From the IMG/VR virus record IMGVR_UViG_3300032397_000096, positions 1-20,822 of that record: a stretch of 20,822 nt of DNA. One strand, given 5' to 3'. The first letter of the stretch is position 1; each line of letters begins with the position of its first letter. The stretch comes from a virus. A program made the translations under genes and the position numbers. A model generated the notes under the pieces. The model was not told the origin of the DNA, searched no databases, and saw nothing but the letters and a program-made list of their open reading frames with translations. Shown here piece after piece: positions 3,182 through 20,346 of this stretch.

Positions 3182-4282
3182 TTAACTGTGTAAAGTTGAT
3201 GAAGCTAAATCGTATGTTGCCGTACTCCCCGCCGTTTTTACTTTCCAACTATTTGTAATAGGATTGTACTCATGTGCAATTCTAGTACTCGGTCCAGCGC
3301 CGAAAATATAACCGTATTGTAATATAGCTGTTGCGGCGTGTGATGTATTAGCCTGTATTAAATTTGTTTTACTTAACCAAGTATCTGCCGCGGCATCGTA
3401 ACAATCGCAATCATTAAGTGAGTCTATAGCATAACCTCCCGTCACATATCCCTTATCCAATACAGCGAACGATGCTGCCGAATATCTTGACGGCGATAAT
3501 ATGGAACTCCTGTTCGTCCAAACATTAAGAAGCGAGTTGTATTGTTCGCAAGACGATAAATTAATCCCCCCTCCCGCATAACCGCAGAAAACATAACCTT
3601 TATCTAAAATAGTAGAAGCACACGCCTGCCGTCTTATCTGATTTAATGGTGCTTTTACAACCCAAGAATTAGCGGTTGGGCTATATTCATCACATAAACC
3701 TACTGATGTTGTCGTTGATCCGAACGCATATCCAGCGTAAATGTATCCTAAACCTAAAATAGTGGAAGCAGATAAATAACCTCTTGCAGTTGAAGAAAAA
3801 CTTGTTTTGGCAGTCCATGTACCCGGCGCACCAAAAGCATATTCCTCACAAGTTTGTACACTTCCAGTAGTAAACCCTCCGTAAATATACCCTTTGTTGG
3901 CTATAGATGAAGCCGCCAATCTGCAAGTACTTGTTGTCAAGTTTGTACGCGCAGTATAAGTATCAGCCGCAAAATTGTATGATACGCAAGTCTTTATTAC
4001 TCCTGCCGAGGTGTATCCTCCATAAAGCATACCGTAAACTATCGATTTAACATAAGCTATAATCTGTGTTAAGGAAATTTGAACTTGATCAGCGGTTTGA
4101 GTACCCATTACTACACCGCTGGCTATTAAATCATTTTTAGCGTACTGTGTAAAATCAGATATAGCATCTAAAATTTCAGTAGTTGTAGTCTTCTGGGTAA
4201 TCCCGTTTTTATGACATAGAAATTCATCCGAAACTGCGGGTGTGGTTACTGCTGAATAATATTCAATTTCGCGTATTGTCAT
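3182..4282 (-). CDS. Six-blade Kelch-like propeller with tail-anchor-like N-terminus
   Basis: The protein has 366 aa. Residues 1-50 resemble the short anchor found at the start of phage tail fibres (D-E-F-L-C-H-x-x-G-x-T-Q-K-T-T) and match the product of the gene just upstream. Residues 82-366 contain six Kelch-like repeats of about 47-50 aa, with cores YGMLYGG, GYIYGG, GYIYAG, GYVFCG, GYVTGG and GYIFGA. Each is followed by a C-x-x-Y strand (absent in the last) and an N/D-x-W/Y-x-x-K/R-x element. The chain ends in LASSTLHS, matching the strand before each blade core, so the terminus probably closes the ring with blade 1. Such propellers often bind glycans or proteins, so receptor binding is my inference. 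TAATG coupling links it to the gene before; its SD is weak. Confidence 0.8.
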   Translation of the reverse strand: MTIREIEYYSAVTTPAVSDEFLCHKNGITQKTTTTEILDAISDFTQYAKNDLIASGVVMGTQTADQVQISLTQIIAYVKSIVYGMLYGGYTSAGVIKTCVSYNFAADTYTARTNLTTSTCRLAASSIANKGYIYGGFTTGSVQTCEEYAFGAPGTWTAKTSFSSTARGYLSASTILGLGYIYAGYAFGSTTTSVGLCDEYSPTANSWVVKAPLNQIRRQACASTILDKGYVFCGYAGGGINLSSCEQYNSLLNVWTNRSSILSPSRYSAASFAVLDKGYVTGGYAIDSLNDCDCYDAAADTWLSKTNLIQANTSHAATAILQYGYIFGAGPSTRIAHEYNPITNSWKVKTAGSTATYDLASSTLHS

Positions 4283-4533: not shown

Positions 4534-7500
4534 CTATATTGTAGATGCCGCTGTATAAGCTTTTGAACTTGACATATTCGCTTTTCTTTTCCATGTGTCA
4601 ATATTTGCAGAATATTCGTCACAATACGCATTTGTTTCCGGAGTCATGTATCCTCCATAAACATATCCCTTGTCGTATATCGCGGATGCCGAGCAACAAT
4701 TTTTATTATTCAAAGTCACGGCTTTACTTGTCCATGCATTAGTACCTATCGTATAGGATAGACAATCCGATAATCCGGAAATTAAATTCTGTCCCCCCAC
4801 AACATATCCTTTATCTGCAATTGTAAAAGCTTTCGAGTCGAATTTTGAAGTCGGCATGTCTGTTTTATTTGTCCACGAATCACCGGATACATTGTAAGAA
4901 TCACAATCTGCATAGAGTTCACTTCCGCCGTAATTTGTACCGTTGAAAATATATCCGTTGTTTAATATAGTTGTAGCGGATGAATAGCTTCTTCCGGGTG
5001 TGGGGATGTCTGTTTTAGCAGTCCAGCTATCGGCTATTGAATCATATTTATCACAATCTTGAAGTTCAATACTATCATCCCGACCGCCATAAATATATCC
5101 TTTATCCATTATAGTAGAAGCAGAAAATACGGTTTTGGCACTTAGTATATCCGTCTTGGAAGCCCAACTATTTGTTAAAGGTGTATATTCATCACAATTT
5201 TGTAAAATTTCTACTGTAAATCCTATAATATAAACACCTCCGCAAATATAACTTTTAGATAAAATCGTATTAGCCGAACTATACACCCTATAAGGTAGTG
5301 GGAGGTCATTTAAAATCGTCCAAGAATTATTTATTGGATTATATCTTTCACAGTCTTGTGTATAGAACGCAAAGAATCCTAAGTACACATACCCAAATTC
5401 TAAAACCAAATCTGCCGTAGCGTATGCGTATTCGTCAGCACTGCCTAATAACTGATAATCCACCATAATCTCACTGATGAAAAAATCATCGTTATCGTTA
5501 TTGAAAAATTCAAGCTGTAGTCTTAATCCAGTAGCTCCGATATATGAAATTATGTTCTGCATAAAATCACTCGCACCGGGAAGTGTAGTTCTGAAAGTCC
5601 CTATCTCTCTATTATCGATTGATATTTTGTAATTTAATAATTCAGTGCCTTGAGGTTTTACGATCAGAGATAATCGATCGAACATCTTGCTCGCTCTTGG
5701 ATTATCTATATGTATCAATGGAGTTTTGAAATATTTTCTATAATACGTCCCATCGTCTAATAGAGTATCAGATTCTAAACTGAAAACCTTGCCGCTAAAT
5801 CCACCTGTATAAATTTTCCATAAAGACTCGTTTACTTTAACAGAATTAGAACATAAATGATATAAGTTAAATGTATGTTTAGTCCATGTTGCGTAATCTA
5901 TGAAGTACACAAGACAAATATCAGGATTGTCAGAACCTTTAGAAATCATAAACCATTTAATGGCTCTAAGTTCAGAATCATATATCGCGTGGAATTTATC
6001 TATCTTTAATAAATCTACATTCTCTTTAATCCATTTATCTATATGTGTAGGTTTTATGAGGGATGCTATTTGATAATCTCCAACTTGCTGACTTGCCATA
6101 ATTGAGAATATGTTTCCGGTTTCGTCCATTACGGCAACGTCACGGGGAGTTTTAACTATGAGCCTCTGATGCGCCGCGCCTCCATCCCATTGAGCTGCCT
6201 GATAACCCCAATTCATAACGCCTATTGCAACATCGTCTAATATGAAGGTTTTATCCCTGCTGAAGATTACAAGATTACCCCCAAATTCTACACATCCGGT
6301 AATCTTATTTGTCATTATTTTAATAAGTATAGTGTTAGTATTACTGAAGTCTGCCAGTCCGTTAGCCGAAGCATAAAGCATATTTGGATGTCCTTCAACT
6401 CCATAAGCCCAAAGTCTTTTATGTACTCCGCGCCCGTGCTTTAAAAAATACTTTGGCCAGTCAGATTGCCAGTCTGTAGGAAGGAACGCAAGGCTTGTAG
6501 TAGGGATTGCATCAGTTAAAGAACCGTCTGCTATGTCGTCTGTATATGTTGTAGCTGTATTATTAGCTAAAGTTGCGAGTAATTTATACGATGTCCCGCC
6601 AGCCTCTGTACGGTATATTTTACGTTGTGTAGTTCCAGTAGGGCCAACTTCGATGCTCGTTAAATCAATACTATCGTTTCCCTCTGCCGCAGTAACTACG
6701 TTAGATGCTACACTTCCCGAACTTTCTCCGCTTGCCGTAACGAAAGTTATTTTATAAGAATGAGTCCCTGAAGTAACCGCACCCCCGTCACCGCCTAAAG
6801 CCGCGACACAAGGTTTTGGAGACCCCATATCCCAAGCGTAACTTAAATTATTACCATAAACTTGAGGTTTGTCTTCTCCGTTTGTGATATATAATTCATC
6901 ATAGAAAGTTTCAAAATAATACTTTAGATTAGCCGTTAAATCTGCTTTTAGATTTTCAGTATAATTTTTTATAATGTCTCCGTCGCTCGTTCCAACTATT
7001 ATATCAGAACCTTCGGATACTAAATAATTCCCATTTTCGTCGCCTATATTATCGGCATTTTCATCAACTACATAATAACCGCTAAGTTGTCCGTTTTCAC
7101 GAATGAAGTGATATACTCCGGTTATGCCCGTATAATTGTCTTGTGCGTAAGGGACTATAGGAGGATCGAAATCGGCAGTCCATGCCGCTACGCCTTTTTG
7201 GATTCTAAATTCGTCGATCCAACCGTTAATATAATAATTAGTATATGCGCCGAATCCAATTTTAAATGTCGCTGCGAGATTTGGAAAACTTGTGCTGACT
7301 GTTATTCCGACAACGGGAATCAATGCTTGACTAACTCCATCAATAAATATGTAGACACTTGCCCCTGACCGAACAAATGCTATATGATACCATGTATCGA
7401 CAACGGGAATCCAAGAAACTCTATAATATGCCAAAAAAGATGCCGCAGATTCACTCTTAAAGCATAGAAGATCTGTTCCAGAAACATAATATAATGTATA

Positions 7501-7974
7501 ATAATTATCGTTATCGACTCTTTGTTCAAAAAAACAACTACCCTGTTTAACCGCGAATCTTACCCACATATCAATTGTAAAATCGCCAGTTCCTAAATAC
7601 CAGTCAGCTGAATCCGGATATGTAATATAATCCGAATTACCATCAAGCAGAAGCGAAGTCGTGCCGAATTTTTTTTGTGCTGTATCTAATGCCGCAGTTC
7701 CTACAAAAGTCGCCGCGCCTTGGATCGGGTCTATGTAAGCTGTAGCCGCATCTGCTCCGTCAAAGTGAGACATTAACTTGGTTGTAGAAACATATTCGGT
7801 AGCTACTAAATCACCGTTTGCTACTTCTGTGCCGCCTCTGGGTTGCCTGCCGCCTCTATGTATATTGATATTTTCAACATCAATCATACATTCTTTCGGC
7901 ACAAGATCAAGATCGGGATTAGCGTTCCACCCGCCTATTTGCCCTATCCTATATGTCTGACCAACATACGCCAT
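4534..7974 (-). CDS. Tail nozzle/hub-type protein fused to LamG-like domain and Kelch propeller
   Basis: The protein has 1146 aa. Residues 1-60 look like the opening of short-tail tube or stabilisation proteins. About 62-272 form a LamG/concanavalin-like jelly roll, with SHFDG at 69-73, TWYHIAFVR at 194-202 and IDEFRI at 253-258. About 386-495 form a fibronectin/Ig-like domain (Y-K-I-T-F-V-T...R-K-I-Y-R-T). About 505-845 are typical of nozzle/tube proteins (T7 gp12-like or P22 gp10-like), with runs such as RLWAYG, VIFSRDKTFIL and the C-terminal ISEIMVDY. Residues 846-1146 carry six Kelch-like repeats with C-x-x-Y and N/D-S-W-x-x-K-T/A. The plausible role is the tail conduit plus receptor-binding domains. 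It follows the gp4-like adaptor directly. SD GAGG lies 7 nt before ATG. Domain borders are read by eye. Confidence 0.8.
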   Translation of the reverse strand: MAYVGQTYRIGQIGGWNANPDLDLVPKECMIDVENINIHRGGRQPRGGTEVANGDLVATEYVSTTKLMSHFDGADAATAYIDPIQGAATFVGTAALDTAQKKFGTTSLLLDGNSDYITYPDSADWYLGTGDFTIDMWVRFAVKQGSCFFEQRVDNDNYYTLYYVSGTDLLCFKSESAASFLAYYRVSWIPVVDTWYHIAFVRSGASVYIFIDGVSQALIPVVGITVSTSFPNLAATFKIGFGAYTNYYINGWIDEFRIQKGVAAWTADFDPPIVPYAQDNYTGITGVYHFIRENGQLSGYYVVDENADNIGDENGNYLVSEGSDIIVGTSDGDIIKNYTENLKADLTANLKYYFETFYDELYITNGEDKPQVYGNNLSYAWDMGSPKPCVAALGGDGGAVTSGTHSYKITFVTASGESSGSVASNVVTAAEGNDSIDLTSIEVGPTGTTQRKIYRTEAGGTSYKLLATLANNTATTYTDDIADGSLTDAIPTTSLAFLPTDWQSDWPKYFLKHGRGVHKRLWAYGVEGHPNMLYASANGLADFSNTNTILIKIMTNKITGCVEFGGNLVIFSRDKTFILDDVAIGVMNWGYQAAQWDGGAAHQRLIVKTPRDVAVMDETGNIFSIMASQQVGDYQIASLIKPTHIDKWIKENVDLLKIDKFHAIYDSELRAIKWFMISKGSDNPDICLVYFIDYATWTKHTFNLYHLCSNSVKVNESLWKIYTGGFSGKVFSLESDTLLDDGTYYRKYFKTPLIHIDNPRASKMFDRLSLIVKPQGTELLNYKISIDNREIGTFRTTLPGASDFMQNIISYIGATGLRLQLEFFNNDNDDFFISEIMVDYQLLGSADEYAYATADLVLEFGYVYLGFFAFYTQDCERYNPINNSWTILNDLPLPYRVYSSANTILSKSYICGGVYIIGFTVEILQNCDEYTPLTNSWASKTDILSAKTVFSASTIMDKGYIYGGRDDSIELQDCDKYDSIADSWTAKTDIPTPGRSYSSATTILNNGYIFNGTNYGGSELYADCDSYNVSGDSWTNKTDMPTSKFDSKAFTIADKGYVVGGQNLISGLSDCLSYTIGTNAWTSKAVTLNNKNCCSASAIYDKGYVYGGYMTPETNAYCDEYSANIDTWKRKANMSSSKAYTAASTI

Positions 7975-7977
7975 TAT

Positions 7978-8631
7978 CTACCTCAAAAGTGCTGAATCAA
8001 ATTTAGCGATTGGTGTGCTTGAGTTTCTACATTCTATTATATTTCTAAGTCTTGCCGCTTCGTTTAAAATGTACGGGTCTAAAGCCATGCCATATTCGGG
8101 GGCAAGGTCTATCGCAAGATTATATCTCATAGCCTTTTCCCATTCAGCAGGCTGTGTTATAGTATCCGTTATAGCCGTATAAGACGTAATTGGTTTATAC
8201 GATGTAAGATATAAAGTCTCTGCTGTAGAGTAAGCTCCGTTCAGATATATACACCCAAGACCGCTTGAATAATTAGCATCGTAGTATAATTCATTAGCTC
8301 TTTCATCTACATCTTTATCGCTTACTAAATTATAGTCTATTGGAGACATTGAGACTTCAACTTCGTAATCTACGCCGTCCGAATTCCTGATATATGCAGA
8401 TTTAATGCTCATGGGTTTTGCTGTGTCTAAAGTCCCTCCGGTTCCTATAGTGTATCCTGCGGTACTGGCAGTTAAGGTGAAAGATTCCGTAGTCGGCGTC
8501 AACATAGTCTCTTCCCAAGACTTGAGCATCAGATTTAAAGAGTCTAACGCTTCGGTTAGTATCGCACTGTTTGTATTCCTGACTCTACAAAGCCTTAATG
8601 CGCCATAAATAACGTCATACACCAGACTCAT
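7978..8631 (-). CDS. P22 gp4-like head-to-tail adaptor / tail accessory factor
   Basis: The protein has 217 aa. Its N-terminus has the helical pattern of the P22 gp4 tail accessory family: I-Y-G-A-L-R-L-C-R-V...E-A-L-D-S-L-N-L-M-L-K-S-W, about residues 8-40. A beta-rich middle and a C-terminal helical part follow (P-A-E-W-E-K-A-M-R-Y-N-L-A, about 160-173). In known phages this protein makes a ring under the portal and joins head to tail. It sits immediately before the nozzle-like tail gene, as expected. The start overlaps the preceding acyltransferase by 17 nt and has a GAGAGG box 6 nt ahead. Its separation from the head genes by a five-gene sugar cassette is the unusual aspect. Confidence 0.8.
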   Translation of the reverse strand: MSLVYDVIYGALRLCRVRNTNSAILTEALDSLNLMLKSWEETMLTPTTESFTLTASTAGYTIGTGGTLDTAKPMSIKSAYIRNSDGVDYEVEVSMSPIDYNLVSDKDVDERANELYYDANYSSGLGCIYLNGAYSTAETLYLTSYKPITSYTAITDTITQPAEWEKAMRYNLAIDLAPEYGMALDPYILNEAARLRNIIECRNSSTPIAKFDSALLR

Positions 8632-9169
8632 AGCGTACCTCTCTTTTGTTGACAGACGGTATAAAGTTCAACATATTTTTCGATCTTTTAGCTAAATATT
8701 TTATTGGTCTGCCGCCCCAAATCTCCCATTCAGGGATATCGTTATTTACAAAACTAAAAGCTCCGATTGCACATCCTTCACCTGTTGTAATACCGGGCAT
8801 TACTATGCTGTTGGCTCCGATTAGAGTATGTCTTTTAAGTAAGATTTTTCCTTTCTGCAATCCGGGCTTAAATTCATCAGAAATGCAAGGGCCAACCAAA
8901 CTATGACCGCTATAATCATCATTTGCAGAATAAAGCGAAACTCGGCCTGACAACTGCACAAAATCTTCAAGTTCTATGCCGTTACCTCCGCAGAGAAAAT
9001 CAAAACATCCAATATGAATATTAGAGCCAATTTTTATATTGCCCGTCAATATGCAGAAATCATCAATACGCACATTATCTCCAATTTCCAAATAGTCACA
9101 ATAGATACTTGCTTTAGGACTGATAATAACATTCTTTCCTTTATGAAGAATAGTCGGGTTCAATTCCAT
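8615..9169 (-). CDS. Left-handed beta-helix (hexapeptide) acyltransferase, WbbJ/galactoside-acetyltransferase-like
   Basis: The protein has 184 aa. Repeated hexapeptide steps with I/V every sixth residue run from about 14 to 155. The landmark S-A-N-D-D-Y-S-G-H loop (about 81-89), K-I-L-L-K-R-H-T-L-I-G-A-N-S-I-V-M-P-G and I-W-G-G-R-P-I-K-Y-L-A-K-R-S-K match acyltransferases of O-antigen and nucleotide-sugar clusters, which move an acyl group (usually acetyl from acetyl-CoA) onto a sugar hydroxyl or amine. It is probably an active trimer; no truncation is apparent. It overlaps the second acyltransferase by 29 nt and the adaptor by 17 nt, so it is expressed with virion genes. Together with the neighbouring aminotransferase, N-acylation of an amino sugar is an attractive inference. 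The exact substrate cannot be read from sequence. Confidence 0.85.
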   Translation of the reverse strand: MELNPTILHKGKNVIISPKASIYCDYLEIGDNVRIDDFCILTGNIKIGSNIHIGCFDFLCGGNGIELEDFVQLSGRVSLYSANDDYSGHSLVGPCISDEFKPGLQKGKILLKRHTLIGANSIVMPGITTGEGCAIGAFSFVNNDIPEWEIWGGRPIKYLAKRSKNMLNFIPSVNKREVRYESGV

Positions 9170-9539
9170 TTCCTACCTTTCCCTGCTCTGCCAATTTTTG
9201 AAATCTCAATAATTCCTTCCCTTCCAGAGGTCTTTTAAATACACAAGGATTCCCGGCACATATAGAATCGGAAGGCAGATCATGTGTTACAATGCTCCCT
9301 GCGCCTACCATTACGTTGTTACCTATATTCACGCCCGGAAGCACTACGGCTTTCTTGCCGATATAAACATAATCCCCTATATTGATTTTAATGTTTTCTT
9401 TATACAGTCTTATAGGGCAGTGAGTTATAATGGTAGCTCCCGCCGCGAGTACGAAGTAATTACCTATCGTCACGATATCGTCACGAAAAGTCTCAATTTC
9501 GCCCCATAGTTCCGCATGGTGTCCTATTGTTATTGGCAT
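9141..9539 (-). CDS. Short left-handed beta-helix (hexapeptide) acyltransferase
   Basis: The protein has 132 aa. The hexapeptide pattern covers almost the whole chain: V-T-I-G-N-Y-F-V-L-A-A-G, I-N-I-G-D-Y-V-Y-I-G, V-V-L-P-G-V-N-I-G and V-M-V-G-A-G-S-I-V. The classic closing motif S-I-C-A-G-N-P-C follows, then a short C-terminal helix. The H at T-H-C-P (about residue 40) lies where many members carry the catalytic His. It is shorter than the usual 180-220 aa, lacking most of an N-terminal region, but the helix coils and the closing motif look intact. It overlaps the aminotransferase by 10 nt and its sister acyltransferase by 29 nt, so the three are probably translated together. The predicted role is sugar O- or N-acylation; the acceptor is unknown. 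Confidence 0.85.
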   Translation of the reverse strand: MPITIGHHAELWGEIETFRDDIVTIGNYFVLAAGATIITHCPIRLYKENIKINIGDYVYIGKKAVVLPGVNIGNNVMVGAGSIVTHDLPSDSICAGNPCVFKRPLEGKELLRFQKLAEQGKVGNGIEPDYSS

Positions 9540-10159
9540 TGATATACCTTGAACTGACTTAAATCCGGGTATGATTTTTCTACATCTTCGTTGTCTATAG
9601 GTTTCCCGTTATCATAAAACTGCTCTATGAGTAAAAGTCCTCTTGTTGCTATTTCAGGCATCATGTAGAAATTATGACCTAACATATCAAAGTTATCATC
9701 AAGATAATTACACTCTCTACGGCCTGAGAACCTTGCTCTTTTAAACCATAAATAAGCCTCGTAATCATCTGTTAAAATTGCTCCGCCTTTCGTAAGTTTT
9801 AAATGTTTATAAGGCCCGGAGAAGGATAGACACATAAAAGTGTCGGGCATATACATATTATATGTAAATCTCAAAGCGGAGTCCCAAGTCTTTGTAGGCC
9901 ATAGGTTATATGCACCTTTAAGTGTCGTGCCTTTAACAGGCTCGAATTTAACCTTCCCGCCTGCGTGTATAATCTCGCACGGTACGCTCATGTAAGTTCT
10001 CGAAGGTATCGTAATCTCCTTGCCTTCTATTCCTTGATACTTCAAGCTCAAGAAGATAGCGTTACTGCAACAATCGAGAGCTACGGCATATTTAGCACCC
10101 GTATATTCGGCGAGTTTTTCTTCAAAAAGTTCGGTAACTTTATAAACGCCTTGAGCCAT
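9530..10159 (-). CDS. Shortened DegT/DnrJ/EryC1-type sugar aminotransferase
   Basis: Full enzymes are about 360-400 aa and convert a keto-sugar nucleotide to an amino sugar using PLP; this one is 209 aa. Family marks are clear: F-E-E-K-L-A-E-Y-T-G-A-K-Y-A-V-A-L near the N-terminus, then E-I-T-I-P-S-R-T-Y. A D-S-A motif (D93) stands where the PLP-pyridine Asp is expected. S-F-S-G-P-Y-K-H-L-K-L-T-K-G-G-A (112-127) carries the candidate PLP lysine K118. Between residues 76 and 93 about 45 residues of the usual fold seem missing, and most of the C-terminal domain is absent. It may be minimal, work with a partner, or be a non-catalytic sugar-binding relative. The SD AAAAGG is 6 nt before ATG. It sits between the glycosyltransferases and acyltransferases. 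Confidence 0.8.
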   Translation of the reverse strand: MAQGVYKVTELFEEKLAEYTGAKYAVALDCCSNAIFLSLKYQGIEGKEITIPSRTYMSVPCEIIHAGGKVKFEPVKGTTLKGAYNLWPTKTWDSALRFTYNMYMPDTFMCLSFSGPYKHLKLTKGGAILTDDYEAYLWFKRARFSGRRECNYLDDNFDMLGHNFYMMPEIATRGLLLIEQFYDNGKPIDNEDVEKSYPDLSQFKVYQCQ

Positions 10160-10162
10160 GTT

Positions 10163-10894
10163 TTACCTTTTCCAGAATTTCTTTAACTTCTTTTCTTGCT
10201 TTTCTTTATCTTTAAGTTCTTTTAAATACTTGTCAAAATTACCTGTGAATTTTGCCATACCCCAATGGTCTATTTCAAACATAGGGTCTACCCAAATCTG
10301 ATAGCCGAGTTCTCTCAGTTTGTCAGATAAACATAAATCCATGCCCGTAAATGTATGATCTATAATCTCATTGAAGAAAAACGGATATACTTTCTTGTTA
10401 TTTAACCAGAAATAACTATCCGGATAAGTTTCAATATATTTCAATACTACTTCTTTTTTAATTCTCAGGAATCCCGCAGGAATCCGGAAGGCTTCTAAAA
10501 GAAATCTGCCTTTTTCTACGGTCTTGCCGAGTATTCGGCCTTTATTATCTTTGTTATAATCGCCTATATAATCTAATTTGCCGTTTTTCATGCGATAAGT
10601 ACCCGCTACTATTGGGTCTTTATGAAGTAAAGAATCTACTACTGATACCGGATTCCAACTTTCGTCTGATTCAATCATTAAAAAATCAGTAGCATCACTT
10701 TCGGAAAATCTTGTCAAAGCTTCGTTAATGGCAACTTCAACGTGAAACCCGCCCTCAATTTCCCAATAATCAAAATCAATTCCCATTTTCATCAAGACTA
10801 TAGCAGTCTGGCATAAAGACCTTGCGTAAGGACTAACAGTTTGATAATTATAAAAAGGGGTGAATATAATCAACTTGCCTTTATATTCTATCAT
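10163..10894 (-). CDS. GT-A-like phage glycosyltransferase, second copy of a tandem pair
   Basis: The protein has 243 aa and is colinear with the gene just upstream over its full length. A GT-A-type layout is visible: an N-terminal strand L-I-I-F-T-P-F-Y-N, then the nucleotide-sugar/metal region F-L-M-I-E-S-D-E-S-W-N-P at about 71-82. There the usual D-x-D is E75-S-D77. A conserved R-I-P-A-G-F-L-R-I-K-K-E-V follows at about 137-149, then G-M-D (possible catalytic Asp) and I-D-H-W-G near 207-211. The C-terminus is Lys-rich and helical. Similar proteins in phages are usually annotated as glycosyltransferases; donor and acceptor are unknown. Its ATG overlaps the upstream stop (ATGA), with AAAGGAG 4 nt ahead. 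Confidence 0.8.
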   Translation of the reverse strand: MIEYKGKLIIFTPFYNYQTVSPYARSLCQTAIVLMKMGIDFDYWEIEGGFHVEVAINEALTRFSESDATDFLMIESDESWNPVSVVDSLLHKDPIVAGTYRMKNGKLDYIGDYNKDNKGRILGKTVEKGRFLLEAFRIPAGFLRIKKEVVLKYIETYPDSYFWLNNKKVYPFFFNEIIDHTFTGMDLCLSDKLRELGYQIWVDPMFEIDHWGMAKFTGNFDKYLKELKDKEKQEKKLKKFWKR

Positions 10895-11622
10895 ACAACT
10901 CCTTTGATATTCGTTGCCATTTTTTTTACATCTTCAATAGCTTTCAGACCTCTTAAATATTTATCAAAATTACCTTTATATTCCGTTAATCCAAAATGAT
11001 CTATTTCAAGCGCAGGGTCTATCCAAATCTGATAACCAAGTTTTTTGAACTTGTCAGATATAACATAATCCATGCTTGTAAACTGATTATTTATAATTTC
11101 GTTTTTAAAGAACGGATATATTTTCTCTCCATTGATGTAATAATGTTCAGGATATTTTTCGATATATTTTAATATTACTTCTTTTTTAATTCTTAGAAAT
11201 CCCGCAGGTATTCTATCGGCCTCAATGAGTATGCAATCTGCGTTTTTCTGAACACCCATGACGTGTCCATCTTCGGTCTTTTTAAAATCTCCTATGTATT
11301 CAGCCCATGCGTTTTTCTTTCTGTAAGTACCGCAGACTATCGGTTCCGTGTGCATAAGCAACATAACTACAGCCGCAGGATTCCACGCTTCGTCAGAATC
11401 TATAATTAAGAAGTCAGTAGCGTCACTTTCTGAAAATTTAGTCAAAGCCTGATCTAAAGCAACTTCAATTAAAAATCCACCTTCGCTCGCCCAATAATCC
11501 TGTTTAATCCCCAACCTTTCTAAAACTAAAGCAGTCTTGTATAAAGATTCTGCGTAATTAGAAATAGTCTGCCTGTTATAAAAAGTTGTGAATAATACTA
11601 CCTTACCGTCATATCCTTTCAT
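10891..11622 (-). CDS. GT-A-like phage glycosyltransferase, first copy of a tandem pair
   Basis: The protein has 243 aa. The layout matches its downstream paralogue: V-V-L-F-T-T-F-Y-N near the N-terminus, F-L-I-I-D-S-D-E-A-W-N-P (71-82) with a canonical D75-S-D77, R-I-P-A-G-F-L-R-I-K-K-E-V at 137-149, S-M-D at about 183-185 and I-D-H-F-G at 207-211. The enzyme would move a sugar from an activated donor to an unknown acceptor, either virion protein or surface glycan. This is the first gene of the carbohydrate cassette. No SD is seen close to its ATG; the nearest, GGGGAGG, lies about 25 nt upstream and inside a predicted hairpin. Translation may therefore be weak or structure-dependent. Confidence 0.8.
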   Translation of the reverse strand: MKGYDGKVVLFTTFYNRQTISNYAESLYKTALVLERLGIKQDYWASEGGFLIEVALDQALTKFSESDATDFLIIDSDEAWNPAAVVMLLMHTEPIVCGTYRKKNAWAEYIGDFKKTEDGHVMGVQKNADCILIEADRIPAGFLRIKKEVILKYIEKYPEHYYINGEKIYPFFKNEIINNQFTSMDYVISDKFKKLGYQIWIDPALEIDHFGLTEYKGNFDKYLRGLKAIEDVKKMATNIKGVV

Positions 11623-11630
11623 AAGAGTTT

Positions 11631-11654
11631 GAGGGGAGATTTTAACCTCCCCTC
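11631..11654 (-). promoter_or_regulatory. 8-bp perfect hairpin between head genes and sugar cassette
   Basis: GAGGGGAG (11631-11638) and CTCCCCTC (11647-11654) form a GC-rich 8-bp stem with an 8-nt loop. It lies in the 44-nt gap between the 85-aa gene and the first glycosyltransferase. No U-run follows directly on either strand, so it is not a standard intrinsic terminator. On the minus-strand transcript it contains the only SD-like sequence (GGGGAGG) near the glycosyltransferase start. It could attenuate transcription, protect an mRNA end, or limit translation of the cassette. Confidence 0.55.
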
Positions 11655-11666
11655 TCGATTCTCCTT

Positions 11667-11924
11667 TTAAGCTGTAGCTACAATTCCGAAAGTCTCTAAT
11701 GCGACAAGTATCGCATTAACCGCAGTAACTATAGCGTCAGCCTGTGTAGAGGCCGCATACCCGTAAGGGGTAGTGGTCGTAGCCGCCGCAGTAGAAACTG
11801 AGACAATGTGCGAATTTTGTATCGCCGGAGTAGCTCCGTAAACGCTGATGAGTTCCGATGCGTCAGCACCAAAGATAGTACCGTCATCGTTACCCTTATC
11901 TAAATATCTGTAATCTGTACCCAT
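11667..11924 (-). CDS. Small head-fibre/decoration-like protein (85 aa)
   Basis: The protein has a short polar N-terminus, then V-Y-G-A-T-P-A-I-Q (about 28-36), a Thr/Ala-rich linker, and a hydrophobic C-terminal helix (A-D-A-I-V-T-A-V-N-A-I-L-V-A-L, about 62-76). Many tailed phages have a small protein of this design, a F/Y-G-x-T-P-x-x-Q/K motif followed by a trimerising Ala/Leu helix. It is often annotated as a head fibre or head-associated protein. It sits in the head cluster just downstream of the 208-aa protein. The SD AAGGAG lies 8 nt before ATG. No enzymatic features are present; the assignment rests on pattern and position. Confidence 0.7.
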   Translation of the reverse strand: MGTDYRYLDKGNDDGTIFGADASELISVYGATPAIQNSHIVSVSTAAATTTTPYGYAASTQADAIVTAVNAILVALETFGIVATA

Positions 11925-11942: not shown

Positions 11943-12569
11943 TCAATTTATCGGTGTTTCTTCCCATATAAAACTTGCCACCATCGAAGCCGCGCCCGAT
12001 GCAATGGTTGTATAAATCGCGCAGAACCCGCCCGGAGGCAGTATCAAATAACCGCCGAGGTCGAAGTTGTACGCAGGCTGTACGTTGGTTATCGTAATAG
12101 CCGCCGTCAGCATAGAGCCAAACGATTCTATGAGTGTCGGTGCTATAGGCAACGTCGCGCCGGTATCAACCTTCCCTACCGGGGCCGCTCCGCCGAGGTA
12201 GCAGTTCCTCAGTGTCGTTGACGGCACAGAGTGAGTGACTTCTGTAGAGCTATACCCGCCTTCTATGGCTATTATAGAGCCTGTGGTCGGCTGTGCTACT
12301 ATCATGCCCACGCCTACCCTCAACACCGATATGTCAACCTGCGACGTTACAGGGTTTGACAGCACGAGTCCTGTATAAACCGTGGTTAAACCCACCACGG
12401 TTACAACCCCCGCCTGATTCGCGGCTGTCATAAGCCGTCCTGCTTTTGCCATATCGTAATATCGGCCATGACATTCCGATACGATAAGATCACCTTTTAT
12501 GCCGGTTCTTAACGGATTAACAGTACCGCTTCCTACCGATATTTGTCCTACTTTTCCTTCGAGTAACAT
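11943..12569 (-). CDS. Beta-rich probable head-associated virion protein (208 aa)
   Basis: The protein is rich in Gly, Thr, Val and Ser, with few long helices. It carries an early H-G-R-Y-Y-D-M-A-K-A-G-R-L motif (about 34-46) and a later V-L-S-N-P-V-T-S-Q-V-D-I-S-V-L strand pair (about 69-83). The H/G-R-Y-Y-E motif followed by an L-x-N-P-x-x-S-G-like strand is a pattern I associate with phage structural proteins next to coat genes. The composition suggests an all-beta jelly-roll or decoration protein. It is more GC-rich than its neighbours. A strong SD, AGGAGG, lies 5 nt before ATG. The role in capsid decoration is inferred. Confidence 0.7.
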   Translation of the reverse strand: MLLEGKVGQISVGSGTVNPLRTGIKGDLIVSECHGRYYDMAKAGRLMTAANQAGVVTVVGLTTVYTGLVLSNPVTSQVDISVLRVGVGMIVAQPTTGSIIAIEGGYSSTEVTHSVPSTTLRNCYLGGAAPVGKVDTGATLPIAPTLIESFGSMLTAAITITNVQPAYNFDLGGYLILPPGGFCAIYTTIASGAASMVASFIWEETPIN

Positions 12570-12773: not shown

Positions 12774-14000
12774 TTATGACATAACCCTGACCGCCCATCT
12801 CGGACGTGTGCATTTCTGACCGAAGATAACGTCAAGCCTGCAAGGGAACTGGTCGTTAGTTACATCGTAATCTCTGATAAGTCTTATCGACATACCTTTG
12901 GCGTTAGCTCTGTATGCAAAGTCCTGCCCTTTCGGTACTTCGAGGTCTGCCATTACGAATGTAAAAGCGTCCCTATGGAAAGCAAGGTTCTGAAGGTATG
13001 CAGTTGAAGCCGTACCGCTCGATCCTCCAAGGTCTACAACAGTTGCCGCAGAAGCCGCAGTCCAATCAGCGCAATAGCAATTCTGCTTCGGGCCTGACTT
13101 GTAAATAGGCCATGCTACCGTAAGGTCTGCCGCGCTTCCTGTAGCCGTATAAGAAGTACCCACTACAAACTGTTTCAGGTGGGTATAAGCTACTTTAGTC
13201 TCCTGGTTGACTTCATAAACTCCGGCTACCGTGATTATGTCGCCTTTGAGATAAATCTCTCCGTTAGTTCCAGTTACGGCAAGGTGGGTGTCCCCGTTAG
13301 CCGTACCTGACAAGTTGCAAGTCCCCGCAGTTGTACGAGTTCCAGTAGTATGAACAGGAGTCATTTCAGATTCCATACATTTAAAACTATAAACAGAACC
13401 CATGTGTCCTTTTTCATACTGTGTGGAAATTGCAGATGCAGGCTGATAAAGTCCTTTAGAATCGGTTATCAGTGAGTTCATTGCAAGTGCGCTTCCAAGA
13501 TAAATCCTGTTCCCGTCGTCCGGTGCAAGTCCCTGTTGCATTGTAGCTCTCGCGGCCACAAGGTCTGCAAGAACCGGATGTGTGCCGAAAGTTGTGTTTT
13601 CAAGGTTGTAAACTTCTTTGTAGCAAGCGGTTAAAACTGTTTTTTCAGTTTCTGCCGCGAGCCTTGCCATCGCAGGTTCGAGAAATCTTTTTGAGAAATC
13701 GTCTATTGACAGAGTAAGTTCAGCAGAACTGAACTCCATGTCAATGCCGAGCTGTGTAGCGAGTGTTAAGGTCTGTGTGCTTTCAGTTACATTCACAGTA
13801 TCCATAACCGCGCCAGTCCTGACGGAAAACTCGTTAGCATCACGAATTAACAAAGTCCCGCCGTTCTTCGCGCCAGTCTGAGCAAAACGCCCGTCATATT
13901 CGCGATTAATATTTTTACAGAAAACTAAATTGTTTTCATATATCTGAAGTGCCTTACGAGTTATATCGCCAGCACTTAACGTCTTGAGTGTGTTCGCCAT
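12774..14000 (-). CDS. Major capsid protein, P22 coat-like HK97 fold
   Basis: The protein has 408 aa. The N-terminal segment (A-L-Q-I-Y-E-N-N-L-V-F-C) and the block D-M-E-F-S-S-A-E-L-T-L-S-I-D-D-F-S-K-R-F-L-E-P (about 87-109) resemble the P22 gp5-like coat family. So do the insertion-type domain with K-G-D-I-I-T-V-A-G-V-Y-E-V-N (about 253-266) and the C-terminal Y-D-V-T-N-D-Q-F-P-C-R-L-D-V-I-F-G. Members build the icosahedral shell around a scaffold. The scaffold gene lies 4 nt upstream and packaging genes before it, as expected. AGGAGG 8 nt before ATG gives a strong start, fitting the most abundant virion protein. Confidence 0.88.
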   Translation of the reverse strand: MANTLKTLSAGDITRKALQIYENNLVFCKNINREYDGRFAQTGAKNGGTLLIRDANEFSVRTGAVMDTVNVTESTQTLTLATQLGIDMEFSSAELTLSIDDFSKRFLEPAMARLAAETEKTVLTACYKEVYNLENTTFGTHPVLADLVAARATMQQGLAPDDGNRIYLGSALAMNSLITDSKGLYQPASAISTQYEKGHMGSVYSFKCMESEMTPVHTTGTRTTAGTCNLSGTANGDTHLAVTGTNGEIYLKGDIITVAGVYEVNQETKVAYTHLKQFVVGTSYTATGSAADLTVAWPIYKSGPKQNCYCADWTAASAATVVDLGGSSGTASTAYLQNLAFHRDAFTFVMADLEVPKGQDFAYRANAKGMSIRLIRDYDVTNDQFPCRLDVIFGQKCTRPRWAVRVMS

Positions 14001-14004
14001 TTAC

Positions 14005-14811
14005 TTATCCTCCTAATCGTTTTTTAATCTCTGCCAGCTTCTTAGCATTTTCCCGATCTATCCACTGTTCGTCTGTGAGTTTAGAATCATCAGTTACTTC
14101 GATTCCTTTATCTCCGGAGACTGGTCTTATGGGTTCGGGAGCCTGTGAAGCCTTTAAAGTTAAAGTTGAAAGTTTACCCTCCAACTTGCCAAGTTCCCTC
14201 ATCATCTGATGATAGGGCATCTGGCTTAATTTCAATGCTTCGTTTTCGTTTTTACCGAGATAATAAGCAACTTCGGCAAGCTGATCTTCGAGCAACGCTT
14301 TCTGCAAAGCAGGTGCGAAAACTTTTTTATCAAGTGCCTCGTCAAAATCCGTGTATTTAGCCCTTACAAGTTCGGCGGCGGCGTTAAACTTTTCAAACGC
14401 AATCTCTTGATCCATCTTTGCAGAGACTTCCTGCTCAATTTGCGCTTTCTGCTTGTCTCGCCATCCCAACAAAGAATCTTCGTAAGTAGTAACGGCCGCG
14501 TCATACTTCACATGATCTATATTCCCATACTCATCTGTAAATTGCGTCATGCTCGGTCTTGCCGGTCTGCTACCTTCTGACTTTCTATACTCCGAAAGTT
14601 CCGCTTCCGCTCTTTCTGCTCTTGCTTTAGCCTCGAATTTTTCACGAGTTATCTTGTCAATTCTTGCCTGTACTTTCCGGCTGTAATCTTCGTTCGGTTT
14701 TATCTCTGGCTCAGAGGGTTTAACCTCAGTTTCTTCAGAGGGTTTAACCTCTGTATTTTCCTCTGCTGGTACTACGGGTTCAGTAACTTCCGTTACAGCT
14801 TGTGTTTCCAT
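14005..14811 (-). CDS. Scaffolding protein
   Basis: The protein has 268 aa. The N-terminal 42 residues are an acidic, Pro/Glu-rich tail with two direct K-P-S-E repeats. About 43-80 and 115-145 are charged coiled coil. Y-L-G-K-N-x-N-E-A-L-K-L-S-Q-M (about 184-198) is typical of phage scaffolds. The C-terminus is a D-E-Q-W-I-D-R-E-N-A-K-K-L-A-E-I-K-K-R helix of the kind that binds coat protein. Scaffolds guide assembly of the shell and leave before packaging. It sits immediately before the coat gene. AAAGGAG lies 7 nt ahead of the start. Confidence 0.85.
   Translation of the reverse strand: METQAVTEVTEPVVPAEENTEVKPSEETEVKPSEPEIKPNEDYSRKVQARIDKITREKFEAKARAERAEAELSEYRKSEGSRPARPSMTQFTDEYGNIDHVKYDAAVTTYEDSLLGWRDKQKAQIEQEVSAKMDQEIAFEKFNAAAELVRAKYTDFDEALDKKVFAPALQKALLEDQLAEVAYYLGKNENEALKLSQMPYHQMMRELGKLEGKLSTLTLKASQAPEPIRPVSGDKGIEVTDDSKLTDEQWIDRENAKKLAEIKKRLGG
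14711..14751. repeat. 17-bp direct repeat (two copies, 24-bp period) inside the scaffold gene
   Basis: The 17-mer TCAGAGGGTTTAACCTC occurs at 14711-14727 and 14735-14751. On the coding strand it encodes the duplicated E-V-K-P-S-E segment of the scaffold's acidic tail, so slippage or recombination is a simple explanation. Each copy is also nearly palindromic around GTTTAAC, which may be incidental. Confidence 0.8.
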
Positions 14812-14844
14812 TTTGAGTCTCCTTTCATGGCATTAAAGCCAAGT

Positions 14845-16575
14845 TTATTGTGTCCCCATCTGTGGCTGACCTTGCGGTTGTCCTCCGGGTGATTGTGCTT
14901 GACTCTGTGATTGAATGGCCTGCATTATAGCCCCTGCTATCTCCTCACTTCCAGGTACGTCCAAGTATTTCATAAGCAACGGCAATAAAACCGGCGCATA
15001 TTGCGGGCCCGCGTACTGCATAGCCTGAATTATATTGTCTGCTGTCTGCTGTCTGCGTGACGGAGATCCCGCGCTTCGTACCCTTATATCGTAACGTCCT
15101 TTGCTCAAATCGTTAAATATCGCCGGCTGTCCGTTTATCATAACCGGATAATTTATCTGAATATTCTGGTCAACACCGCGCAGTCTTATAATCCTCGCGT
15201 TATCGTAAATCTTCGGTATGAGTTCTATTAAAATCTTTTTAGTTTTTATTTTAGCTTTTCTTAAATTCTCCTGAAACGAATATACTCCGAGGTCAGACCT
15301 TGAGTTTCGTGCGTTAATAGCCTTGCCCGACCTTTCGTTAGACTGCATACCTAAAGAAGATTCGTACATACCCATAATATCTTTAATATTATTATCAAAT
15401 AATTGTATTAAAGTCATGGCTCCGGGGTCTACCGGAGCTACGGGAGTTCTTTGAGGCAGGGATTGCCCTCCGGGGTTGACCTGCAAATATGGCAGATTTT
15501 TAATATTGGCGTTTCTCCAATCGTCCTCAAACCCTTTAATCTGCTGAGGCGTTACGATAAACGGAGCTTTCGGAGCGAGTGCGACCTTTTCAGTTAAACT
15601 CGTAAGCCAATAATTATATCCCCTTTGTCCGTCTTTGGCATCGGTTATTAAAGACTTTTTATAAGTCTTACCAAGCAGATGAATCTCATGCCCCGAAACT
15701 TCGACTATTGGAATTTCAGTACCGGGCCAGATACCCTCGTCCAATATTTCAGTACCGCTTATCTTATACCATTTAATTTCATAAGTCTGAACTTTACGGG
15801 TTCTTAAAATTTTTAAATTATCAAACTGATGTTCGTCTATCTTTTCCGCTACTCCGGTTTCTCCGGTTACAGGGTTTTGTATTTCAACAATTTCTTTTTC
15901 TTTAGGTACTTTAACAAAATATTCAGCTATGAATACTTTATTGTCCTGATACCACAATTCGTAATCTTCATTACCTGAATAACTTTCAAAGTCCGTCATC
16001 TCGCTTTCCGGGTATTGTTCTTTGAACTCTTCTTCGCTCAAGGCTTCTCTGATAAAAGCAAAATTGCCCTTCGGGTCAAGGCTTACCATGCAGGGGTTTT
16101 TAATAGGCTTGATTTTAATTTCCTGATCAAACCCGTCAGCACAATACTCTGTAAGTATTCTCCAATAGCCGAACCCGCCGCCCGCCGCGTGTTCTGCGGC
16201 CATCGAATAAACATCTTCGGCTTCGCTTCTGTATTCTATATCTTGTATCAGCTCATTATAAATTCTCGCAACCTGAATGTCTCCCTTATCGTCTACGGGG
16301 ATAATGTCATCAGTATTCGGAAGTCCCTTCTCTGCATTAACGACCTGCGCGACAAACTTTGAAAGTTTATTCATAGTAAGATGAGGTCTGCCTTCTTCGT
16401 CCCTTGCGGTTACGTCAGCTTCGTCCCATTGGCCTGAACCGATATTAAAGGCAAACTTCATGTCTTTAATGAAAGCATCTTTGATATCACTTTCGGCGGC
16501 AGATAGGATTTTATAATGCTCTCTTGCCTTTTCTAAAAGTTTTTCTGTTGCCTTTTTCTCCGTTTCCTTTTTCAT
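14845..16575 (-). CDS. Portal protein, P22-like
   Basis: The frame is open to 16668, but I start it at the ATG at 16575 (576 aa). There the ATG overlaps the terminase stop as ATGA, whereas the longer form would overlap the terminase by almost 100 nt. The N-terminal third (H-L-T-M-N-K-L-S-K-F-V-A-Q-V-V-N-A-E, then D-I-I-P-V-D and A-A-G-G-G-F-G-Y-W-R-I) matches the P22-type portal family. The long helical segment with S-L-G-M-Q-S-N-E-R-S-G-K-A-I fits the stem/wing region. The C-terminal tail is Gln/Pro/Gly-rich and disordered. Portals form the dodecameric DNA gateway at one capsid vertex and dock the terminase encoded just upstream. Confidence 0.88.
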   Translation of the reverse strand: MKKETEKKATEKLLEKAREHYKILSAAESDIKDAFIKDMKFAFNIGSGQWDEADVTARDEEGRPHLTMNKLSKFVAQVVNAEKGLPNTDDIIPVDDKGDIQVARIYNELIQDIEYRSEAEDVYSMAAEHAAGGGFGYWRILTEYCADGFDQEIKIKPIKNPCMVSLDPKGNFAFIREALSEEEFKEQYPESEMTDFESYSGNEDYELWYQDNKVFIAEYFVKVPKEKEIVEIQNPVTGETGVAEKIDEHQFDNLKILRTRKVQTYEIKWYKISGTEILDEGIWPGTEIPIVEVSGHEIHLLGKTYKKSLITDAKDGQRGYNYWLTSLTEKVALAPKAPFIVTPQQIKGFEDDWRNANIKNLPYLQVNPGGQSLPQRTPVAPVDPGAMTLIQLFDNNIKDIMGMYESSLGMQSNERSGKAINARNSRSDLGVYSFQENLRKAKIKTKKILIELIPKIYDNARIIRLRGVDQNIQINYPVMINGQPAIFNDLSKGRYDIRVRSAGSPSRRQQTADNIIQAMQYAGPQYAPVLLPLLMKYLDVPGSEEIAGAIMQAIQSQSQAQSPGGQPQGQPQMGTQ

Positions 16576-18053
16576 CCTCTCATCCACGATCCTTTTAACT
16601 TCAAACCCATTTTTACAAAATTGGTTTTTTTGCTTGTCATTCTGTCTTCGTAGTAAAAAAGTAAACACATAGCATCGAACTCGTCAGGAGATTGCCCTAT
16701 TTCAGCCTTAATGTCTTTCTTATCTATAATCTGTGTATGGCCTTTATTATCAAATTTATAACGGGTAGCCGCGATCTGGTCTTTTAAATTCGGGTCGTCC
16801 GGAATACTTATAAGCCCTTTTTCAAACAACTCCCGAACCCTCCAATACATCTCAGCTCTTTTATTGCAGAATCGCGTAGGATCGTCAGCCTGTCGTCTTA
16901 CGTCTGCGGCCTCGACAATCCCGCCCTTCTTGTCTCGAAGCACACCCTCTACAGCCCAACCTACGCCTATGGTGTCAACCCGTACACAGTCAGGCTTTTC
17001 TAAATCGATATCCGCTCCCACCCAATTAGCCAACTCTATAGAATCGCTCGTCTTTAGACGCTTGAACGGATATATCTTATTCCCTCTCCTTTTAGCGATT
17101 ATGGAGTTATCCCCACCGGCCCCACAGTCAACTGCCATTAGAAGTGCCGCGTCCGGCGAGGTAGTAATCCCCCTTTCTATGGCAGTCATTACCCAATCCC
17201 AATTTATTAAGGTTGATTCGTCGAACAAAGGCGGGAGTCCTAATACGTTCATCCGGAAAGTATTACTTTCCCGTCCGTACCTATATTCTAACTTCTTGAT
17301 TCGTTCTTGATTGACAATTTCAGAGTCTTCTGCGTTCCATTGAAGCGTAACCCAATCGTCCCTCTTCCCCTGCTGAGTCTCTATAGCATAACCCTTAACG
17401 TGCATCGGATTAAAAATCAAAAACATCAAGTTACATTCGCCGGTCATGTTGTTCTCAAGAGTGCTGAACACAGGGTCTAAAATACCAGATCCCTCGTCCA
17501 CCACCTGAAGCATATATTTAGCATGAAGCCCCTGTAAAGTCTCGACCTGCTCATTCGGGGCCATTTTAGGATTCGCCGCTTTCTTAAAAGCAAACCATTC
17601 TTTGCCCCTGACAGAATCGTCTACATCCTTCCTCAGTAACTTATCAGTCTGTAATACGAAATATTCTTTAATCGCGGAATGGCTTAGCCATAGAGAAATT
17701 TCACTCCAAAGAACCTTGTCTAATTGGTCTGAACTCACGGAAATGCAGGGTATCTTCGGGAACGGGAAGCAGAACATAAACCATAAAATAACCCAACTTG
17801 CGACTGCATCCTTCCCTACACCTTTACCCGCCATGATAGAAACGCCGAGTACGTCCCGCCTGCGGCCTTTCCTTTTATCGTTTACAAGGTCTTGTACGGC
17901 TTTAAGCCCTTCTTTCTGCTGTTTAGTTATGAAATAATTACTGCCGGTATCTGCGTTGTAGGGATTAATTATAAATTCATCTACGAAGAAAATAATGTCT
18001 CCACGACATTTTTTTAATAAGTTTTCTTGTTGACTTTGAGTAGGTTGCGTCAT
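16572..18053 (-). CDS. terL: Terminase large subunit (packaging ATPase and nuclease)
   Basis: The protein has 493 aa. Walker A is at 75-82 (A-G-K-G-V-G-K-D). Walker B M-L-Q-V-V-D-E is at 181-187, with the catalytic Glu at 187. An F-N-P segment (214-216) is a plausible coupling motif. The nuclease half has D309 in M-A-V-D-C-G-A-G-G-D, D360 in R-V-D-T, and D457/D460 in S-P-D-E-F-D-A-M. All catalytic positions seem present. It pumps DNA into the head at the portal and cuts the concatemer. No small terminase is in this window. The AGGAG upstream lies 17 nt from the ATG, too far to be ideal; an ATT codon 12 nt upstream is better spaced, but I keep the ATG. Confidence 0.92.
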   Translation of the reverse strand: MTQPTQSQQENLLKKCRGDIIFFVDEFIINPYNADTGSNYFITKQQKEGLKAVQDLVNDKRKGRRRDVLGVSIMAGKGVGKDAVASWVILWFMFCFPFPKIPCISVSSDQLDKVLWSEISLWLSHSAIKEYFVLQTDKLLRKDVDDSVRGKEWFAFKKAANPKMAPNEQVETLQGLHAKYMLQVVDEGSGILDPVFSTLENNMTGECNLMFLIFNPMHVKGYAIETQQGKRDDWVTLQWNAEDSEIVNQERIKKLEYRYGRESNTFRMNVLGLPPLFDESTLINWDWVMTAIERGITTSPDAALLMAVDCGAGGDNSIIAKRRGNKIYPFKRLKTSDSIELANWVGADIDLEKPDCVRVDTIGVGWAVEGVLRDKKGGIVEAADVRRQADDPTRFCNKRAEMYWRVRELFEKGLISIPDDPNLKDQIAATRYKFDNKGHTQIIDKKDIKAEIGQSPDEFDAMCLLFYYEDRMTSKKTNFVKMGLKLKGSWMRG

Positions 18054-19345: not shown

Positions 19346-20346
19346 TGAAACTTGAACCGATTGAAGTCTTTAATATTGAAACATACGAAAAAGGATATGC
19401 TAATCCGTCCAATATTCCAAATGGTTGGAGCGCTGAAAATTCAGCGCGCGTAATTGTAGAAAATTATATAGATCAAAAACAACAATTTGAAAAGAAAATT
19501 CAAGATAAACTTAGAGAAATGGCTATTAAGGCAGAAATAATTTTAGCAGAAACAGCATCAGTATCAACACCAGGGGCGGGATTTGTAAGTGTATACGCAG
19601 ACACTACGGCAAACCCTAAAATGCTTTTTAAAGATGATGGAGGTACGGTTGTTGATATTTTAGACTCTCGGAATACAGTTACTGGCATCACATCCAAAAC
19701 CTTTACAAATCCTACTCTAACCGCAGGGTCAATAACAGTACCCTCAATGACTATTACAAACGGCTCTCTCTTGACAAATGCGACTGTTAATACCTTAGAA
19801 GCAGATGGAGCTAATTTCTTCCTGACACATAACGTCACAACTACCGGCAGAGGGCATATACCCACTATTAGAATTTTCAGATTAACAGCTAACGGCGGGG
19901 CTATAGGCAATGCTATAACTGATTTTTTCGGGGCTACTAGTTCTTTAAGTTTAGAAGCAACTACATCATATCTTTTCGAGGCTGAGTGCTGGTTTTTAAA
20001 ATCTACAGCGGGTACGGTAGTATGGACTTTATCAACGTCAGCCGCGAATTATATAAACCTTGCAGGACGGTGGCACGCGTCACCTGTAGCTACTTTGGCA
20101 ACAGCAGGGGCCATGACTTCCGCCGGTGTCGTTACACAGGTCGGCCCTGCTACTGCGTTCCCGGCAACTGGGTCACTTACGAGCGCAGTTAATCATTGTC
20201 ATTCTATTGTTGCCTTAATAGAAACAAACGCCGTTGGAAATATAAGATTGAGGTGTACAGAAAGCGCAGGTACTGTCACTCCTTTAAGGGGTAGTTATTA
20301 TAAAGTTACAAAGTTACCGGCTAATACAGGAGCCTTTGCCGCATAA
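19345..20346 (+). CDS. Virion appendage-type protein with trimeric tip-like C-terminus (333 aa)
   Basis: An upstream TTG keeps the frame open to 19330. The real start is most likely the ATG at 19345, which shares one base with the preceding stop (TAATG) and has GGAGGA about 7 nt ahead. The N-terminal 65 residues are helical. Then comes T-P-G-A-G-F-V-S-V-Y-A-D, followed by K-D-D-G-G-T-V-V-D, a pattern common in phage tail or fibre proteins. A Thr-rich connecting region follows. The C-terminal domain has R-G-H-I-P, F-L-K-S-T-A-G-T-V-V-W-T, V-N-H-C-H-S and a closing T-V-T-P-L-R-G-S-Y-Y-K-V-T-K-L. Phage appendage proteins often end this way. Probably a second fibre or tail-tip component acting with the upstream gene. 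Confidence 0.75.
   Translation: MKLEPIEVFNIETYEKGYANPSNIPNGWSAENSARVIVENYIDQKQQFEKKIQDKLREMAIKAEIILAETASVSTPGAGFVSVYADTTANPKMLFKDDGGTVVDILDSRNTVTGITSKTFTNPTLTAGSITVPSMTITNGSLLTNATVNTLEADGANFFLTHNVTTTGRGHIPTIRIFRLTANGGAIGNAITDFFGATSSLSLEATTSYLFEAECWFLKSTAGTVVWTLSTSAANYINLAGRWHASPVATLATAGAMTSAGVVTQVGPATAFPATGSLTSAVNHCHSIVALIETNAVGNIRLRCTESAGTVTPLRGSYYKVTKLPANTGAFAA

Follow-up and report, generated by a model that had tools for sequence, protein, structure and literature searches.

A 20,822-base IMG/VR virus record (IMGVR_UViG_3300032397_000096; this whole stretch is hereafter called the window) carries a cassette of five predicted sugar-modification genes at positions 8615-11622 of its − strand. 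In the direction of transcription, the genes encode two GT-A glycosyltransferases (GT1 and GT2), a compact DegT-type sugar aminotransferase (mini-DegT), and two hexapeptide acyltransferases (AT2, then AT1). We propose that the cassette is a virion-glycosylation module using an N-acylated amino-sugar, a reading to which sequence comparisons and structure models lead us to assign a probability of about 0.6. The acceptor would probably be the coat protein or sm, a small protein encoded between the coat gene and GT1. A narrower version, in which sm itself is the acceptor, falls somewhat short of even odds. We are similarly tentative about the wider proposal that, in a large environmental group of P22-like viruses, a partner glycosyltransferase (GT) adds sugar to a small head-surface protein dedicated to this role, and that some of these viruses make their own N-acylated amino-sugar via mini-DegT.

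On the evidence of profile searches and neighboring genes, the late operon on the − strand of the window is that of a P22-like virus. A first-pass annotation had placed five such genes on this strand, with overlapping or nearly overlapping junctions, between head genes and a head-tail adaptor. Open reading frames (ORFs) lie exactly there. The junctions measure −4 bases (GT1/GT2), +3 (GT2/mini-DegT), −10 (mini-DegT/AT2) and −29 (AT2/AT1), and the first 17 bases of the gp4-like adaptor gene coincide with the last 17 of AT1. P22-type terminase, portal, scaffold and coat genes flank the cassette on one side and gp4- and gp10-like genes on the other, with three small genes, including that for sm, separating coat from cassette. 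An assembly artifact can be rejected because the same cassette recurs at ∼99% DNA identity on three further IMG/VR contigs, which come from different metagenomes; one of these contigs (L005) starts within GT2.

Gene order between coat and gp4 in P22-like viruses

We scanned IMG/VR with alignments of the portal, the GT and sm, and found the order coat-sm-GT-gp4 to recur in many environmental P22-like viruses. The GT scan yielded 80 loci, 55 of which have a coat match; when redundancy is removed from the latter, 37 of 38 have the GT in the slot between coat and gp4. The sm scan, for which loci with a GT supplied the seed sequences, places a GT between coat and gp4 in 70 of 75 loci, or 34 of 37 after redundancy is removed. 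Of the three non-redundant exceptions, two have another glycan-type gene in the slot, Wzy_C in L209 and an MptE-like gene in L257, and the third (L232) is a contig that is cut short. A fairer test is provided by loci sampled through portal or coat similarity. Among 27 non-redundant loci of this kind, a GT is present in 5 of the 7 that have sm and in 1 of the 20 that lack it (Fisher p = 0.0014), and of the two loci that have sm but no GT, one (L041) has an MptE-like gene instead. Most of 12 annotated phages picked by coat similarity have no such gene between coat and gp4, while two P22-like metagenome phages carry a single GT of the window's family exactly there. GTs of this family are not confined to the slot: 25 of the 80 GT-scan loci lack a coat match, and members are also present in large genomes of cyanophages, Caulobacter phages and Sinorhizobium phages.

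The contents of the slot vary. In the P22-like phages L194, L195 and L209 a membrane protein of the Wzy_C (O-antigen ligase/polymerase) type replaces the GT downstream of sm, an assignment made by Pfam for L195 (barely below the cut-off) and L209, and by resemblance for L194. In the P22-like virus L046, a gene between coat and gp4 (14203-15054) encodes a sulfotransferase (PF00685, 6e-27), and methyltransferases are fused to the GT or stand beside it in L014, L015, L033 and L034. Judged from these predicted genes, the slots show tailoring that varies among methyltransferases, tandem GTs and a sulfotransferase.

An independent P22-like phage, L237, has the order coat-sm-GT-miniDegT-AT2-AT1, followed by two small ORFs and then gp4-like genes. 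Its proteins are 48% (sm), 43-45% (GT), 73% (mini-DegT), 50% (AT2) and 52% (AT1) identical to those of the window, compared with 38% for portal, 40% for coat and 34% for gp4. L031 shows the opposite pattern, with 57% (portal), 50% (coat) and 49% (gp4) identity but only 35% for sm and 29% for the GT. Because the L237 block is closer to the window than are its portal, coat and gp4, and the reverse holds for L031, the segment from sm to AT1 seems to move as a unit, as judged from this single comparison.

The sm gene (11667..11924, − strand) encodes a Ser/Thr-rich protein of 85 aa that is kept between coat and GT in P22-like viruses. It is a probable virion decoration or head-fiber protein. We favor it as the candidate glycan acceptor on the grounds of where it is encoded, a stretch rich in Ser and Thr, and its association with the GT, although its combined Ser and Thr content (21%) exceeds that of the coat (18%) only modestly. 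Between sm and GT1, a hairpin with a perfect 8-bp stem, GAGGGGAG-GTTAAAAT-CTCCCCTC, occupies positions 11628..11651 of the − strand, and the entire gap has a minimum free energy of −19.9 kcal/mol. Among diverged loci whose sm-GT gap has room for a hairpin, 17 of 21 non-redundant gaps (81%) have z < −2, with a mean of −2.7, as compared to 15-39% for three other gaps in the same operons. Such a hairpin would fit attenuation between abundant virion proteins and enzymes or minor proteins.

Enzymes of the cassette

GT1 (10891..11622, − strand) and GT2 (10163..10894, − strand) are paralogues of 243 aa each that are 57% identical. Searched singly, they match phrog_1574 (1.4e-18 and 2.1e-16, respectively) and no Pfam GT family. 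When a profile of 11 family members was compared with the PDB, only A197 of Sulfolobus turreted icosahedral virus (STIV; 2c0n) matched, and a profile of 61 members matches 2c0n at 1.6e-6. The predicted catalytic residues of GT1 are a DxD motif (D74/D76), D184 and H208. D76, D184 and H208 are invariant across the 61 sequences and D74 is nearly so; GT2 has E at position 74, such that its motif reads E-S-D. An AlphaFold2 model of GT1 (pLDDT, the predicted local distance difference test, of 94.9) has 2c0n as its best match (Z 18.0, 2.4 Å over 163 residues). This is followed by the GT domain of lysyl hydroxylase LH3, Mnn9 and ColGalT1, and the Foldseek list for the model includes the capsid glycosyltransferase of PBCV-1. 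With the GT-A fold, the DxD motif, the late Asp and the His all present in GT1, and phrog_1574 matched by both proteins, the description of the two proteins as GT-A-like glycosyltransferases stands, and they can be placed in a viral GT-A family (phrog_1574/A197-like).

The mini-DegT gene (9530..10159, − strand; 209 aa) had been described as a DegT-type aminotransferase. This holds for the family match, since PF01041 (DegT_DnrJ_EryC1) is matched above the Pfam cut-off at 2.4e-15, but not for size, as the protein reaches only ∼55% of the usual DegT length (∼360-400 aa with a C-terminal domain). Pfam positions 98-164, a middle portion of ∼70 positions, and the C-terminal part have no counterpart. 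Nonetheless, the AlphaFold2 model (pLDDT 90.3, predicted TM score 0.88) aligns 198 of 209 residues with the DegT sugar aminotransferase 7b0d (Z 20.0), and its best Foldseek match is PseC. K118 aligns with the pyridoxal phosphate (PLP) lysine of DegT structures, N163 and the N-x-x-M motif also align with them, and D93, S112, F113, G125 and G126 are invariant in 43 relatives. We take D93 to be the PLP-nitrogen aspartate from where it lies, not from an alignment. The fold-type core with its PLP lysine, Asp and phosphate-binding residues is consequently present, and by sequence mini-DegT is a compact DegT relative rather than a standard member.

A sequence-pattern search of viral contigs and 84,980 prokaryote genomes found mini-DegT in at least 547 confirmed viral stretches and on 15 prokaryotic contigs, all from metagenome-assembled genomes (MAGs), some of which may be viral. 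Because most free-standing copies are 195-224 residues long, the sequences define a true compact family, mostly viral, rather than truncated copies. In 78 of 105 instances, a set that includes redundant contigs, a hexapeptide acyltransferase is encoded no more than 2.5 kb from mini-DegT; in Flavobacterium phage immuto it follows mini-DegT directly. In L317:3009-5624, a single viral protein of 872 aa joins GT4 glycosyltransferase, FkbM methyltransferase and mini-DegT domains, and in a few bacterial MAG contigs mini-DegT adjoins polysaccharide genes. Clusters in L295, L349 and L363 unite mini-DegT with proteins that resemble, by eye, NeuB-type synthases and nucleotide-sugar enzymes, which suggests nonulosonic-acid-like pathways in large viruses. 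As a putative natural minimal sugar aminotransferase, the family should interest enzymologists.

Both acyltransferases exceed the Pfam Hexapep cut-off, as had been anticipated. AT1 (8615..9169, − strand; 184 aa; PF00132, 4.2e-12) matches AntD in the PDB (3vbi, 1.4e-44), the N-acyltransferase of anthrose synthesis, which acts on a 4-amino sugar. The deposited AntD variants 3vbk, 3vbm, 3vbl and 3vbp have one Ser (changed to A, T or C) and one Asp (changed to N) replaced. AT1 retains both residues in the alignment, and the left-handed β-helix together with this Ser and Asp marks it as an AntD-type protein, which would act on a 4-amino-4,6-dideoxy sugar nucleotide. AT2 (9141..9539, − strand; 132 aa; PF00132, 4.2e-9) is of the NodL/LacA type, with LacA (1kqa, 1e-12) as its best PDB match. 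Its hexapeptide repeats are present, and the His of its ITHCPI motif aligns one residue away from the catalytic His of LacA.

Profiles, structure comparisons and conserved residues thus support both halves of the predicted N-acylated amino-sugar chemistry. The amino-sugar logic put forward in the first-pass annotation gains support in the same way, from the DegT PLP-site residues and the AntD-type Ser and Asp that are kept.

Proposed pathway, competing explanations and known systems

In the proposed pathway, the host would supply a 4-keto (or 3-keto) 6-deoxy sugar nucleotide, which mini-DegT would transaminate. AT1 would then N-acylate the amine in the manner of AntD, and AT2 would probably add a second acyl group or an acetyl group. 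GT1 and GT2, as cytoplasmic GT-A enzymes, would transfer the finished sugar or sugars to a virion protein during assembly, most likely to sm, made beside the coat, or to the coat itself. The cassette had been suggested to serve either glycosylation of the phage's own capsid or tail or a late modification of host glycan. Comparative evidence favors the virion branch, because the GT is a regular resident between coat/sm and gp4 and because glycosyltransferases of virus coats and of proteins are among its nearest structural matches; the host-glycan branch persists as a rival.

Several observations weigh against virion glycosylation. No gene for a keto-sugar precursor was recognized on the 20.8-kb contig. 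Comparisons of sm with head-fiber and decoration families and structures gave no significant match: against phage head fiber PF11133, 1 of 10 members matched at 0.01 and 0 of 29 did so in a later set, and the sole PDB match, phage decoration protein 9d82, has an E-value of 0.75, such that sm could not be identified as a known protein of either kind. The 92% GT rate in the sm scan is biased upward because its seeds came from GT-bearing loci. Co-variation of sm and GT, with coat divergence removed, is not significant (partial Mantel 0.09, p = 0.10, 57 loci; scaffold control 0.19), and sequence co-evolution is not used here as support. Relatives that share the structural genes, lack the cassette and have unmodified virions had been named in advance as evidence to the contrary; relatives without the cassette do exist, and most of them also lack sm. 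Finally, the Wzy_C genes that some relatives have in the slot would also be consistent with a change of host O-antigen.

Late remodeling of the host surface is the main rival, and we regard it as a distinctly less probable explanation. The modified sugar would enter host O-antigen or capsule, such that virions avoid binding debris or competitors are excluded. P22-like phages are known to use O-antigen receptors, and the pairing of aminotransferase and acyltransferase follows the logic of O-antigen pathways; the Wzy_C genes and the bacterial MAG contigs in which mini-DegT adjoins polysaccharide genes point the same way. P22 itself carries sugar-modifying genes, gtrABC, a lysogenic-conversion locus whose membrane flippase and membrane GTs modify host O-antigen. 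However, profile and membrane-segment checks of the five cassette proteins revealed no membrane-like segments and no match to a GtrA flippase or a GtrB-type membrane GT. In diverse viruses the GT also keeps its place alongside coat, sm and gp4, and late expression would presumably leave little time to alter an existing surface.

It is improbable that the genes are accessory cargo, inserted opportunistically like morons where the late operon has a spacer that tolerates them, and unconnected with the virion. Genes of this kind are absent from many P22-like relatives, and the variable slot contents include an annotated endonuclease (L015) and a GIY-YIG-like ORF (L086). Nevertheless, one GT family dominates the slot at non-redundant sm loci, and most replacements there are other glycan-type genes. 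DNA-modifying GTs are, to our knowledge, not usually encoded between coat and adaptor genes. Hypermodification of the phage genome, with the GTs glycosylating modified bases against restriction, is very improbable even though DNA-glycosylating phage GTs are described (Pyle et al. 2024, as cited in PMC12619734), since Pfam and PHROG profile searches recognized no base-modifying gene on the contig and the best structural matches are GTs that act on proteins or glycans rather than on DNA.

The proposed module has parallels among known systems. We know of no aminotransferase or acyltransferase linked to STIV A197, which is otherwise the closest solved relative of the window GT in both sequence and structure. 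Like the window GT as predicted, A197 is a soluble GT-A enzyme, and its virus has a glycosylated major coat protein; A197 is reported to be essential (PMC10551542). It differs in belonging to an archaeal virus, and its acceptor is likewise unproven. In mycobacteriophages, glycans occur on capsid and tail-tube proteins (Freeman et al. 2023, as cited in PMC12619734). These are tailed phages, as the window virus is predicted to be. As described there they have no P22-type head, and the likeness is one of description rather than of gene families. The AntB/AntD (anthrose), PglE/PglD and QdtB/QdtC pairs combine a DegT aminotransferase with a left-handed β-helix N-acyltransferase, as does the cassette. 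The cassette departs from them in its compact, mostly viral aminotransferase, in its presumed use of a host keto-sugar, and in a late operon that brings together two acyltransferases and two GTs.

Viral GT-A enzymes, phage virion glycans and the pairing of a DegT enzyme with an acyltransferase are already known. As far as we searched the open literature, the regular coat-sm-GT-gp4 order in P22-like viruses, its extension to amino-sugar synthesis by the phage itself and the family of compact DegT proteins have not been described. Searches for P22-like coat, head-fiber or decoration proteins together with a GT did not find the arrangement in that literature, a weak indication that it is new. Few cases of virion glycosylation are known among tailed phages. 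If the proposal is correct, it would be routine in many environmental P22-like viruses, some with a self-made amino-sugar, and would come with an identified GT and a candidate acceptor of ∼70-85 residues. This would offer a small, directly testable system for learning how phages decorate their capsids and what the decoration protects against.

Other features of the window

The remaining head genes lie upstream of the cassette on the − strand: the P22-type terminase large subunit (16572-18053), the portal (14845-16668; PF16510, 5e-138), the scaffold (14005-14811) and the P22-type coat (12774..14000; PF11651, 1.4e-27; phrog_283, 1.6e-61). Between coat and sm, a protein of 208 aa (11943..12569, − strand) has no family match in Pfam or PHROG profile searches and may be a virion component, judging by its position. 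Upstream of the terminase, 18164-20346 of the + strand holds two long ORFs with TTG starts (393 and 338 aa), the first having only weak PHROG matches and the second no Pfam match. Downstream of the cassette, the gp4-like head-tail adaptor (7978..8631, − strand) matches phrog_637 at 5.7e-5, and profiles connect it with proteins annotated as P22 tail accessory factors.

The gp10-position gene (4534-7974, − strand; 1146 aa) follows, with tail-region genes beyond. Its product has a LamG/concanavalin-like domain near the N-terminus and kelch repeats at the C-terminus, and because of these domains sugar-binding modules seem to be built into the tail hub. A second kelch-repeat protein (3182-4282, − strand) resembles the C-terminal part of the gp10-position protein. 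Farther along the − strand, a protein with an S74 endosialidase-chaperone domain (1000-2160; match barely above the Pfam cut-off) adjoins a weak GNAT-like acetyltransferase (2161-2547).

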